Shown here piece by piece: positions 664 through 10,482 of a DNA stretch of 37,145 bases. The notes under the pieces are model-generated. The model had not been told where the DNA came from, ran no database searches, and worked only from the letters and a program-made list of their open reading frames with translations. Each line of letters begins with the position of its first letter. Positions within the stretch are counted from its first letter, which is position 1. The DNA is from Bernardetiaceae bacterium (lineage in GTDB: Bacteria; Bacteroidota; Bacteroidia; Cytophagales; Thermoflexibacteraceae): contig JALONO010000019.1 of NCBI GenBank assembly GCA_025454895.1, positions 1 to 37,145 on the forward strand, read 5' to 3'. The position numbers and the translations under genes are program-made.

Positions 664-812
664 TGTAGGGTGATGAAACTGGCAGCCATGCCCTCCCGTC
701 CCGAGGGTGAGGAAACCGGAATAAACCTGTAAAACATGGTGAGATAAGTAATTACCTCACTTTGGTGCTACAAGCTAACCGCCTCGTGAAGGTTCGAATC
801 CTTCCCCTACAG
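664..812 (+). ncRNA. tRNA-like structured RNA with giant variable arm, copy 1
   Basis: A complete class II tRNA fold. The 7-bp acceptor is TGTAGGG 664-670 / CCCTACA 805-811. T8 and G9 follow, then a D-arm with a 3-bp stem (ATG 673-675 / CAT 687-689) and GG in the loop. The anticodon arm is CCCTC 691-695 / GAGGG 703-707 around loop CCGTCCC. The T-arm is GAAGG 788-792 / CCTTC 800-804 around the canonical loop TTCGAAT. The discriminator would be G812 and no CCA is encoded. The variable region (708-787) is about 80 nt, against roughly 10-25 in normal tRNA-Leu or Ser. It contains helices GAGG 709-712 / CCTC 782-785, CCTGTA 726-731 / TACAAG 769-774 with one mismatch, and GTGAG 739-743 / CTCAC 756-760. 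Read as a tRNA the anticodon would be GUC (Asp), but residue 33 is C rather than the near-universal U, and tRNA-Asp is class I. It therefore looks like a tRNA-derived RNA rather than a standard decoder. I do not recognise the family. Confidence 0.75.
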
Positions 813-851
813 CAAGTAATTATGTGTTGTTTATTGGTTAAGGTTGAAAGG

Positions 852-882
852 TGGTATGCACTTGCATACCATTTTTTATTTT
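852..882 (+). terminator. Rho-independent terminator after RNA copy 1
   Basis: Stem TGGTATGCA 852-860 / TGCATACCA 863-871 followed by a T-rich run. It lies about 40 nt past the 3' end of the first tRNA-like RNA and separates it from copy 2. Confidence 0.85.
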
Positions 883-1038
883 TGGCAAAAGTACGCCTTA
901 TTATTTGAAATTATTTAAACGATTTGCGCTTACCGCCATCTTTTTTTCGGAGTTACCAATGGCTGCGTGCATCGGTTGCGAATATTGAAAATAATCAAAA
1001 AATACGTTGATACATTTTTAAAATACAATCGGTTATTT

Positions 1039-1046
1039 TAGTTTTG
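1039..1046 (+). promoter_or_regulatory. Candidate -7 element for RNA copy 2
   Basis: TAGTTTTG matches TAnnTTTG, but no TTG lies at the right distance upstream (nearest 1007-1009, 29 nt away). It would give a leader of about 40 nt before the RNA at 1096. It is weaker evidence than the promoter of copy 1. Confidence 0.3.
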
Positions 1047-1095
1047 TCGCAACAAGCCGCAAGCCTACTAAAATACGGTTTTGCAAATTTGATAA

Positions 1096-1241
1096 TGTAG
1101 GGTGATGAAACTGGCAGCCATGCCCTCCCGTCCCGAGGGTGGGGAGTCCGGAACAAACCCGGCCCAAGAATAAGGTAGTTTACTGCCTCCTATTTAGGCC
1201 GGGCTAACCGCCCCGTGAAGGTTCGACTCCTTCCCCTACAG
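1096..1241 (+). ncRNA. tRNA-like structured RNA with giant variable arm, copy 2
   Basis: The first 46 nt are identical to copy 1, and the last ~37 nt (from GCTAACCG) differ only at two base positions, so the acceptor, D, anticodon and T arms are the same (acceptor 1096-1102 / 1234-1240, discriminator G1241). The expanded variable arm differs in sequence but keeps its pairing: GGGG 1141-1144 / CCCC 1211-1214 replaces GAGG/CCTC, CCCGGCC 1158-1164 / GGCCGGG 1197-1203 replaces the weaker helix of copy 1, and the inner hairpin is AGGTAG / CTGCCT around TTTA. Single-stranded CCGGAA(C/T)AAACC and GCTAACCG are conserved. Compensatory change with conserved loops argues for selection on RNA structure rather than a decaying tRNA pseudogene. 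Confidence 0.75.
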
Positions 1242-2562: not shown

Positions 2563-3627
2563 TTAATCGGCAAAGTGCGGTTTGGCCACCCCGTTGATCT
2601 TCTTCTTTTTTAGGGCCGTCCCGGCTTTTTCCGCCTCTTGGCGGGTGGCATAGGTACCGATCAGGACCCGGTAGTTTTTCTTGCCCGAAGTCCAACCTGC
2701 CTGGATGAACAACTTGCCCGGCTTGCTCTTTTCCAAACGTTTGGCCTCTACTAAAGCCGGGTTCACTTCGCCGAACGAGGCCACTTGCAGCCCGTAACCG
2801 GCTGGTTTCACGCGCTCGCCGGTGAGGGCGTAGGTGCCGGTGGGGGCAAAGGGGCTTTCGTTGCGCTTAGCGGCCGTTTTTTTGGCCGTCAATTTTTCGG
2901 TCTCGGCTTTTTTTACCAAATCGCCCACGTTGGTTTGCAGCCCTTTGGTAGCGGCGGCCGTTCCATTTTGCGTCGCCTTGGCATTATTTACGGGATTTTT
3001 GGCCAAAGGGTTGGCGTTCTTGGCTTCGGCGGCTTTGTTACCGACCTCCAGGGTTTTGGTTGCACCCGGTTTAGGAGCGGCCAACGGTTTGGGCGAGGCA
3101 TTGGGCTGCACTACATGGGCGGCGGTGCTCAAGTAACCTTTTTCGGTAGTACCTTCGTTATCGTAAGGCAGTTGGCTGGGCAACTGATTAGCCGGGGCTT
3201 CGCCCACCCCTGGCTGGCGGTGCTGCTCGCGGCGCACGTTTTGGGCCAAGTTGCGGGGCATGCCCAACGCAATTACCTCCAACTGCACCTGGGTTTGGGG
3301 GCTGGCAATGCCCAGGGAGTCGGCGGCGGCCGGGGTGATCAGCAGGGTTTCCGGCCCGGTGGGCACGTCGTTGATGCGCACCACCACGCTGCGTTGGGTA
3401 ATGAGATTGGTTATTTTGACCAAACTCTCGAGCGGGATGTGCCGATGGGCTGCCTCCATGCCCCCTCGGTTGTAACGTTCGCCGCTCCGGGTGAACGAGG
3501 CGGCCTCGGAGCGTACTACGGCTACCCCTTTTTCGGTGTAGCCCACCCCAACCGGAGCTTGGCCCCAGGCCTGGCCCAATGGCAGTAGCCCTAGCGTGGC
3601 AACTAAACCATAAAGCAGAAGTTTCAT
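2563..3627 (-). CDS. RlpA/SPOR paralogue with degenerate barrel
   Basis: A 354-residue exported protein. I chose ATG 3625-3627 because it sits directly before a clear signal peptide (MKLLLYGLVATLG...). It shares the layout of its neighbour: signal peptide, DPBB-like region (about 35-125), a long Ala/Lys/Asn-rich linker, and a C-terminal SPOR domain (about 275-350) with GYGLQVASF and KLFIQAGWT. The barrel has lost the landmarks: DRGP is replaced by DVPTGP, the IDLS segment reads LITPAAAD, and the WYG...FHG loop is missing. AAHR and VVVRIND remain. It probably binds the envelope through SPOR without lytic activity. The two genes look like a tandem duplication with divergence. Confidence 0.85.
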   Translation of the reverse strand: MKLLLYGLVATLGLLPLGQAWGQAPVGVGYTEKGVAVVRSEAASFTRSGERYNRGGMEAAHRHIPLESLVKITNLITQRSVVVRINDVPTGPETLLITPAAADSLGIASPQTQVQLEVIALGMPRNLAQNVRREQHRQPGVGEAPANQLPSQLPYDNEGTTEKGYLSTAAHVVQPNASPKPLAAPKPGATKTLEVGNKAAEAKNANPLAKNPVNNAKATQNGTAAATKGLQTNVGDLVKKAETEKLTAKKTAAKRNESPFAPTGTYALTGERVKPAGYGLQVASFGEVNPALVEAKRLEKSKPGKLFIQAGWTSGKKNYRVLIGTYATRQEAEKAGTALKKKKINGVAKPHFAD

Positions 3628-3863
3628 AAACCTTAATAAGTTGTTTGGCGGAAAATTTAAACAAAATCGCTTGATAATCAAGTAACTACTTGTTTTTAGC
3701 AACAAATTGCCTTGCTCGCGGATGCTTCATGGCTTGCCTGGGCGCACGACCAAGGCGCAAATTGGGTCGTAAAAAGATTTCGCATTGGCTTAAGATCAGG
3801 CAAAAACCCTGCAAATATTGTCTTTATTGTTGGTTGAATAGGACTAAAGCATAAGAACTAGCG

Positions 3864-9279: not shown

Positions 9280-10482
9280 ATGATCAATCACTACCGCCAA
9301 TGGTTCAATCAAAATTTCACGCCGGCTAAATACCAGGCCCTGATTGCCGGGGTTAACCAAGAGTTTGACTACCAGGTAGCCTTCAAAATTTGCGAGACCC
9401 CCATTTTCATCCCCGACCAACTTAAAACCGAACTAGAGAAAGCCTGTCAAGACGTGCTGAACCAGGTGTTTAGCCCGGCTTACCAGGCCCAAATGCACCG
9501 GGCCGTGCCCGAGCAGTTCTACGTGCCCGGCGATACGCCCATGCCCACTTTTGCGGCCATCGATTTTGCCGTGGCCCGCGACCCGGAGAACCCAGATCGC
9601 TATTTGCCGCAACTCATTGAGTTACAGGGTTTCCCGTCGTTGTTTGGCTTTCAGGAGTTCATTAGCACCATGTACCGCCGGTATTACGGGCTGCCAGGTA
9701 ACCTCATCCACCTGTTTCCGCCGGAGTTACAGGCCGACGAAAGCCTGTACTTCGAGAAACTGCGCCTGGCCATGCTGGGCGGCCACCACCCGGATCAGGT
9801 GATTTTGATGGAGATCGAGCCGGAAAAGCAAAAAACCTATATCGACTTCCTTTGTACCCAGCGCTATTTTGGCATCAAACCCGTGTGTATCACGCGGTTG
9901 CGCAAGCAAGGCCGCAAGCTTTATTACGAAGAAGGCGGCCACCGCATTTGGGTGGAACGGATTTACAACCGCGTCATTTTTGACGAACTGGTACAACGCC
10001 CTGACCTAGACCTGCACTTTAGCTTCCGCGACGAGCTGGACGTGAGCTGGGCGGGCCATCCCAACTGGTTTTTTAAAATGAGTAAGTTCACCCTGCCGTT
10101 TTTGAACAGCCGTTATGTGCCCACCACGTATTTCCTCAATGAGCTAAAGAGCATCCCCGACAACCTGGACGATTACGTGCTCAAACCCCTGTTCAGCTTC
10201 GCGGGCGCGGGCGTGAAGTTTGGCGTGAGCCAGGCCGACCTGGACCAGGTGCGCGACCCCAGTAATTTTATTTTGATGAAGAAAGTGCAGTATGCGCCCG
10301 AGGTAACCACCCTGGATCTGCCCGCCAAAGCGGAAATCCGCCTGCTGGTGGTGAACGTGGGCGGTAAGCTGGAACTGCTCACCAACCTGGTGCGCCTGAG
10401 CAAGGGCAAAATGATGGGCGTCGATTTCAACAAAGGTCTCGACTGGGTGGGCGGCAGCATCGGCTTTTTTGAGCGCGATTAA
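9280..10482 (+). CDS. Conserved hypothetical protein, possible ATP-grasp fold
   Basis: A 400-residue cytosolic protein of a kind I do not recognise by name. Around residues 297-316 the DYVLKPLFSFAGAGVKFGV segment resembles the ATP-grasp Lys/Gly-rich nucleotide loop (YVLKP....GGGV). It is followed by ILMKKVQYAPEV and then AEIRLLVVNVGG, where ATP-grasp enzymes often have a catalytic acidic residue and Arg. The N-terminal half is rich in aromatic and acidic residues (LIELQGFPSLFGFQEF, RIWVERIYNRVIFDEL), compatible with a substrate domain. If correct it would ligate a carboxylate to an amine using ATP. Substrate unknown; the family call is inference. Confidence 0.6.
   Translation: MINHYRQWFNQNFTPAKYQALIAGVNQEFDYQVAFKICETPIFIPDQLKTELEKACQDVLNQVFSPAYQAQMHRAVPEQFYVPGDTPMPTFAAIDFAVARDPENPDRYLPQLIELQGFPSLFGFQEFISTMYRRYYGLPGNLIHLFPPELQADESLYFEKLRLAMLGGHHPDQVILMEIEPEKQKTYIDFLCTQRYFGIKPVCITRLRKQGRKLYYEEGGHRIWVERIYNRVIFDELVQRPDLDLHFSFRDELDVSWAGHPNWFFKMSKFTLPFLNSRYVPTTYFLNELKSIPDNLDDYVLKPLFSFAGAGVKFGVSQADLDQVRDPSNFILMKKVQYAPEVTTLDLPAKAEIRLLVVNVGGKLELLTNLVRLSKGKMMGVDFNKGLDWVGGSIGFFERD

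Follow-up and report, generated by a model that had tools for sequence, protein, structure and literature searches.

tRNA-shaped RNAs with giant variable arms and aspartate-like identity elements in Bacteroidota and their phages

Introduction

What might a bacterium do with an RNA that folds as a complete tRNA, carries an outsized structured variable arm and stands twice in tandem on its genome? The question is raised by a 37,145-nt stretch of DNA from a Bernardetiaceae bacterium (GenBank assembly GCA_025454895.1, contig JALONO010000019.1, positions 1 to 37,145), analysed here at its full length and referred to as the window. A preliminary description of this stretch had noted two units in which a class II cloverleaf holds an insertion of about 80 nt, had assigned them to no named RNA family, and had offered as functions a tRNA-derived regulatory RNA, a decoy or scaffold for a synthetase, or a specialised adaptor.

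Structure of the RNAs

Copy A (664-813) and copy B (1096-1242) each form a full class II cloverleaf on the plus strand, as had been described, end in G73 and C74, and score 143.6 and 142.8 bits, respectively, against a covariance model of the family. In copy A, the sequence gives an acceptor stem (664-670/805-811, UGUAGGG/CCCUACA), a D stem (673-675/687-689), an anticodon stem (691-695/703-707) and a T arm (GAAGG-UUCGAAU-CCUUC) that leads into G73 and C74. The anticodon loop of copy A, CCGUCCC (696-702), presents GUC at 698-700, and that of copy B (1128-1134) presents GUC at 1130-1132, both placed by sequence and by conservation within the family. The variable arm of copy A spans 80 nt (708-787) and is resolved by covariation into a first stem (709-712/782-785), an inner stem (717-719/779-781), an internal loop AAUAAA/CUAA (720-725/775-778) and a variable hairpin (726-774); that of copy B, placed by covariation and by comparison of the copies, spans 77 nt (1140-1216), confirming the unusual size and structure first claimed for these arms. 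Pairwise comparison of the copies finds the tRNA parts near-identical and the inserts diverged, and the folding energies of the two window copies lie at z = -2.5 and -3.4 relative to dinucleotide shuffles.

Models of ordinary tRNAs (ARAGORN, RF00005) miss both copies: ARAGORN reported no tRNA anywhere in the window and no tmRNA at this site. The earlier view that the RNAs match no named family held when Rfam 15 was searched, with zero matches at the site of the two copies at gathering thresholds and none credible below them; sub-threshold matches (HOTTIP_4, the L20 leader, FopS and others) were rejected as chance or, at most, as resemblance to the tail described below. The host genome has an ordinary tRNA set, with 42 RF00005 matches that include tRNA-Asp, Asn, Gln, Glu, Leu and Ser. 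Downstream of the RNAs, on the opposite strand, stand two RlpA-like genes with DPBB and SPOR domains (1343-2356 and 2563-3705), a pair that is not kept beside the RNA at other loci.

Across the family, the arm combines two stems, of 4 bp and 3 bp, with a conserved internal loop (RAYAAA/CUAA) and a hairpin that evolves fast and varies widely in length; the outer pair of the 3-bp stem occurs as C-G, U-A, A-U and G-C. In a structure-free MAFFT alignment of 24 homologues, 97.5% of cells in the proposed pairs are paired, a share that drops to about 55% on shifting the partners by one column, and 48 cells carry double changes against 14.4 in shuffles. Among 87 distinct rows, in an alignment fitted to the covariance model itself, 27 of 29 pairs have changed on both sides, with 316 double-change cells against 71 in shuffled data. 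These counts uphold the proposal that the inserts diverged with their pairing kept, and random decay of the stems, looked for in the homologues, was not seen. Phage copies have one extra compensated arm stem, GUAG/CUAC. The variable-arm hairpin of many families conserves GGGUUGACCAC (e.g. L107:8007-8152 and phage L252:6342-6491), a motif common to bacteria and phages and absent from both window copies.

Distribution in bacteria and phages

BLAST located the RNA in 62 of 98 relatives. A covariance-model search, proposed in the preliminary description as a check and negative with Rfam, was positive with a family model built from 24 copies, which detected the RNA in 76 of the 98 at an E-value of 1e-13 or better. 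Scores were bimodal, the large forms falling at about 80-155 bits and ordinary tRNAs of 83-85 nt below about 64; a laxer rescan of the 22 negative relatives returned just short matches of about 72-93 nt that scored below 59 bits and were taken for ordinary tRNAs. The high-scoring form occurs in about 50 of 295 genomes of the class, spread over many families, and the RNA frequently stands in arrays of 2-6 copies. A pattern scan of named genomes places the RNA, among the matches listed, in Chitinophaga, Dyadobacter, Cyclobacterium, Belliella, Fulvivirga, Hymenobacter and Emticicia, as well as in Flammeovirga, Neolewinella, Portibacter, other Saprospiraceae and a few Flavobacteriales MAGs. The order to which the window itself belongs is probably Cytophagales. 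A BLAST search of PLSDB plasmids gave zero matches to the RNA.

Within IMG/VR, the RNA lies on 26 contigs, marine phage contigs among them. Plainly viral proteins are encoded near it on three of six contigs examined (DNA polymerase and endolysin on L249, portal and terminase on L252, primase-helicase on L255); the other three have phage-type exonucleases (L244), a phage protein of unknown function (L261) or no match (L267). A BLAST search of the isolated phages of INPHARED gave zero matches to the RNA. The full phage copies listed keep the invariant positions set out below and are intact rather than end fragments, and an AsnC-type gene, a regular neighbour of the bacterial copies, is absent from these viral contigs. 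That phages carry the RNA points to action in trans. Two phage-like contigs also bear other large tRNA-like units of 120-150 nt (L249:4587-4706 and 9979-10112; L267:5951-6100), which have the acceptor AGUCAGG/CCUGACU, A73 and a Leu-type D arm and are unlike the family considered here.

We found the RNA described nowhere in the open-access papers searched, and it apparently represents an undescribed family of tRNA-shaped small RNAs that is widespread in environmental Bacteroidota and their phages.

Identity elements

The hallmarks of a decoding tRNA are U33 and a purine at position 37. Identity positions were counted in 84 distinct copies, drawn from loci found by similarity or by the covariance model. 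On the acceptor side, U1-A72, G2-C71, G73 and C74 are each present in 84/84; in the anticodon loop, U35 (83/83), C36 (83/83) and C38 (81/83) are near-invariant, and G34 is found in 72/83 copies, the others having A (8), U (2) or C (1), such that some anticodons read AUC, CUC or UUC. The decoding features are kept far less: U33 occurs in 60/83 copies and is missing in 28%, and position 37 is U in 69, C in 8, G in 6 and A in 0, giving a purine in 6/83 and its loss in 93%. The commonest anticodon loop of the family is CUGUCUC; the host's tRNA-Asp has the loop CUGUCAC and G73. A short-armed variant of 77 nt (L097) has the same acceptor invariants, with the loop CUAUCUC.

In bacteria, the strong aspartate determinants are G73, G34, U35, C36 and C38, with G2-C71 a minor one; G1-C72 assists in placing the 3' end and prevents amidation of aspartyl-tRNA, which U1-A72 confers (PMC9976931). 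Like tRNA-Asp, the RNA has a CUGUCxC loop, G73 and G2-C71; unlike it, the RNA has a class II body, a giant arm, a base other than A at 37 and no sign of decoding constraint, and it lacks G1-C72 (always U-A here) and G10 (position 10 is mostly A). Its body resembles instead that of the host's class II tRNA-Leu, with which it shares the 7-bp acceptor, the D arm GUGRUGAAACUGGYAGACAY, the T arm and two unpaired bases at the base of the arm; it differs from tRNA-Leu in U1-A72, in the Asp-like loop, in an arm of about 45-120 nt rather than about 10-15, and in G73 (84/84) in place of the leucine identity element A73, which all host tRNA-Leu carry. Serine identity fails at A72 (84/84), where C72 would be expected, and at pair 11-24, mostly U-A rather than C11-G24. 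As read from these positions, the RNA keeps most of the bacterial aspartate-identity set on a Leu-like body, without the decoding features; it looks as if evolution has parted the half of a tRNA that takes up the amino acid from the half that reads codons.

Genomic context

Divergent from copy A, on the minus strand at 46-528, stands a gene for a regulator of the Lrp/AsnC family (Pfam AsnC_trans_reg and HTH_AsnC-type domains), whose best NCBIfam match is AsnC at 160 bits, under the NF008384 cut-off of 227, so that it is labelled AsnC-type only. In 40 of 61 loci, such a gene lies divergently and immediately upstream of the RNA, at a distance of 92-328 nt; no other neighbour, downstream genes included, is comparably conserved beside the RNA. 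Among the matches listed by the pattern scan with room upstream, an AsnC-type gene is present at 38 of 85 loci and is always divergent. Across the 98 relatives, 75 have both RNA and AsnC-type gene, one has the RNA alone, eight the gene alone and 14 neither (Fisher 1.3e-10, inflated by shared ancestry; 4e-7 taking one genome per genus as the correction for phylogeny, a value likewise subject to inflation). Two genomes of the same genus differ in both at once, G039 having RNA and AsnC and G067 neither, and where the two are unlinked, both are usually retained.

A Bacteroidota-type promoter motif precedes copy A on the plus strand (TTTG at 610-613 and TAACTTTG at 635-642), and a promoter-like element of TAnnTTTG consensus, TAGTTTTG, precedes copy B (1039-1046, plus strand), where the -33 element is absent at the usual spacing. 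TAnnTTTG is found upstream of family members in 62/80 and 52/75 cases, against 6-7 in shuffles. Hairpins resembling intrinsic terminators, each with a U run, follow copy A and its tail (852-877) and copy B (1269-1296), both on the plus strand. Upstream of copy A lies a palindrome, TTGCGAAGTTTGCAA (602-616), a candidate operator for the AsnC-type regulator. Palindromes like TTGCAAANTTTGCAA, with at most three mismatches, occur in the upstream regions of 54% of linked copies and 36% of unlinked ones; the rate is 6% in other intergenic windows, which are less AT-rich than the RNA upstream regions, and about 8% in composition-preserving shuffles. As the palindrome was first spotted in linked loci and the enrichment is to that extent post hoc, the unlinked set is its sole independent check.

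A conserved 3' tail, UUAUGUGUUGUUUAUUGGUUAAGGUU, follows copy A (820-845, plus strand). Its 19-nt core recurs exactly beside asnC across several families, even where the tRNA-like part is reduced or missing; full tRNA-like copies are then located elsewhere in the genome. The tail is lacking in copy B, in most arrays and in phage copies, and other families each have a U/G-rich tail of their own. At asnC loci without a full tRNA-like part (L276, L277, L268, L278, L279 and L280; L270-L274), an acceptor/T-arm minihelix, or a conserved U/G-rich tail and terminator alone, is found, which suggests a separate AsnC-linked small RNA. The tail and terminator weakly resemble the FopS sRNA of Bacteroides (RF04319; 25.7 bits against a gathering score of 56), a likeness confined to those elements, with no tRNA-like part in the match.

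Enzymes of aspartate and asparagine metabolism

GatB is encoded in 75 of 76 RNA-positive relatives, a co-occurrence that is weak evidence because GatB is nearly universal among the relatives. AsnRS is present in 98 of 98, AsnB-type asparagine synthetase genes in most, and AsnA is rare everywhere. Two possible drivers were rejected on these grounds: lack of asparagine synthetases shows no clean pattern, AsnA being rare everywhere and AsnB-type genes common, and AsnRS is missing from no relative. With AsnRS universal and AsnB-type genes in most relatives, a need for tRNA-made asparagine is not evident, though formation of asparagine on tRNA alongside AsnRS has precedent (PMC4206432).

A GatA paralogue and a GatB-AspRS fusion of about 1112 aa (GatB_N, GatB_Yqey, OB fold, class II synthetase and GAD domains) form an operon that was encountered in G005 (L328:5635-10424), in G060 (L329:1289-6012) and in family f33 (L360-L368). 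It is sporadic in Cytophagales-like genomes and present in at least nine genomes of that family, and the genomes that have it also encode ordinary AspRS and AsnRS. The fusion is predicted to be a self-contained enzyme for Asp-to-Asn conversion on tRNA; as a partner enzyme of the RNA it was rejected, being found mostly in genomes that lack the RNA.

Proposed function

From this computed evidence, we infer transcription, processing, aspartylation, AsnC-type control and possible amidation of the RNA. Each copy or array would be driven by its own promoter, the transcript would be trimmed as tRNAs are, and the cell's AspRS would load aspartate onto it; the charged RNA would then serve aspartate/asparagine metabolism or sensing under the control of the AsnC-type regulator. 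That the RNA is aspartylated, does not decode and belongs to an AsnC-linked aspartate/asparagine function, whether or not it is amidated, is the reading we favour, at a probability of roughly 0.45. In its most specific version, GatCAB would amidate the bound aspartate, and an RNA unable to place asparagine in protein would serve to make or measure it. Amidation is proposed on account of U1-A72, the pair that allows it, and, taken alone, is the weakest step, plausible and yet on balance doubtful. Slightly further down the scale, and decidedly tentative, is a dedicated tRNA-shaped, non-decoding metabolic cofactor on which aspartate would be loaded by AspRS and then amidated, or its level sensed, under an AsnC-type regulator, and of which phages would carry copies for the same pathway. 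Counted against the favoured explanation are that G1-C72 and, in most copies, G10 are lacking, that G34 is not universal, that some AsnC loci have a minihelix or tail only, and that the phage copies are not beside asnC.

Several rival explanations draw on the same observations. The RNA may be a decoy or sensor, bound or charged by AspRS or another tRNA-binding enzyme, whose occupancy reports aspartate/asparagine status or buffers the enzyme, rather than a metabolic intermediate; on phages, it could occupy a host enzyme or nuclease that acts on tRNAs. Conserved identity positions, the AsnC link, arrays of up to six copies and phage carriage all agree with such a role, no computed result tells it from the favoured explanation, and the invariant U1-A72 would be needless in a pure binder; we consider it about as tentative as the dedicated cofactor. 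A processing or stability module, in which RNase P and 3' tRNA processing would free the tail (820-845) as an sRNA or protein-binding segment, draws on the exact tail core beside asnC in several families, reduced loci included, and on the weak likeness to FopS, but is unlikely given that the tail is missing from copy B, from most arrays and from the copies on phages, and that a conserved anticodon loop would serve no purpose.

The remaining readings would make the RNA a tRNA of another kind or its remnant. Charging by SerRS through the long arm and G73 gains from the bacterial serine determinants, which include G73, G2-C71 and a large variable region (PMC9976931), but is improbable without C72 or C11-G24 and with two unpaired nucleotides at the arm base, as in tRNA-Leu, and it leaves the conserved anticodon loop unexplained. 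Of the functions offered at the outset, that of a decoding adaptor, here an oddly armed tRNA reading Asp codons, fared worst: the full cloverleaf, GUC in most copies and the habit of phages of carrying tRNAs speak for it, yet it is disfavoured, and very improbable, because neither U33 nor a purine at 37 is conserved and the genome has a normal tRNA-Asp, with AUC, CUC and UUC anticodons as a further difficulty. The RNA may well be a synthetase substrate, a decoy or a tRNA-derived regulatory RNA, and AspRS can be put forward as the likely synthetase. Decayed copies of tRNA-Leu or scars of integration, to which the Leu-like D and T arms, the tandem duplication and the presence on phage contigs might point, are scarcely credible beside strong covariation, acceptor and anticodon bases invariant across families, promoter motifs and intact phage copies.

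Like tmRNA, the RNA is a tRNA-shaped, non-standard stable RNA for which charging is presumed; unlike tmRNA, it has a complete anticodon arm, lacks a reading frame or tag and the G3-U70 alanine signal, and is missed by the tmRNA search of ARAGORN. Long variable arms are shared with other unusual bacterial tRNAs, namely tRNA-Sec, allo-tRNA and selC*-tRNA-Cys (PMC7609411), which are translation adaptors with lengthened acceptor and anticodon stems, whereas the RNA has stems of normal length and an arm that is much larger and has an internal structure. Another known system is tRNA-dependent asparagine formation by AspRS2 or ND-AspRS with GatCAB, which likewise would use an Asp-charged U1-A72 RNA (PMC4206432, PMC9976931); its known substrate is the decoding tRNA-Asn, in contrast to the separate, non-decoding RNA with a GUC loop seen here.

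Significance

Beyond the fold first noted, the analysis adds an Asp-like anticodon loop, a conserved 3' tail, promoter motifs, terminator-like hairpins, an AsnC-type neighbour and homologues in many genomes and in phages. Within one bacterial order most sampled genomes have the RNA, as do several other families of the class and phages, and yet it has no Rfam family. Should it be aspartylated, amino-acid metabolism or sensing would have in this RNA a natural acceptor that does not decode; the AsnC-type regulator of these bacteria would gain an RNA as partner, and one would have to ask why phages carry it.
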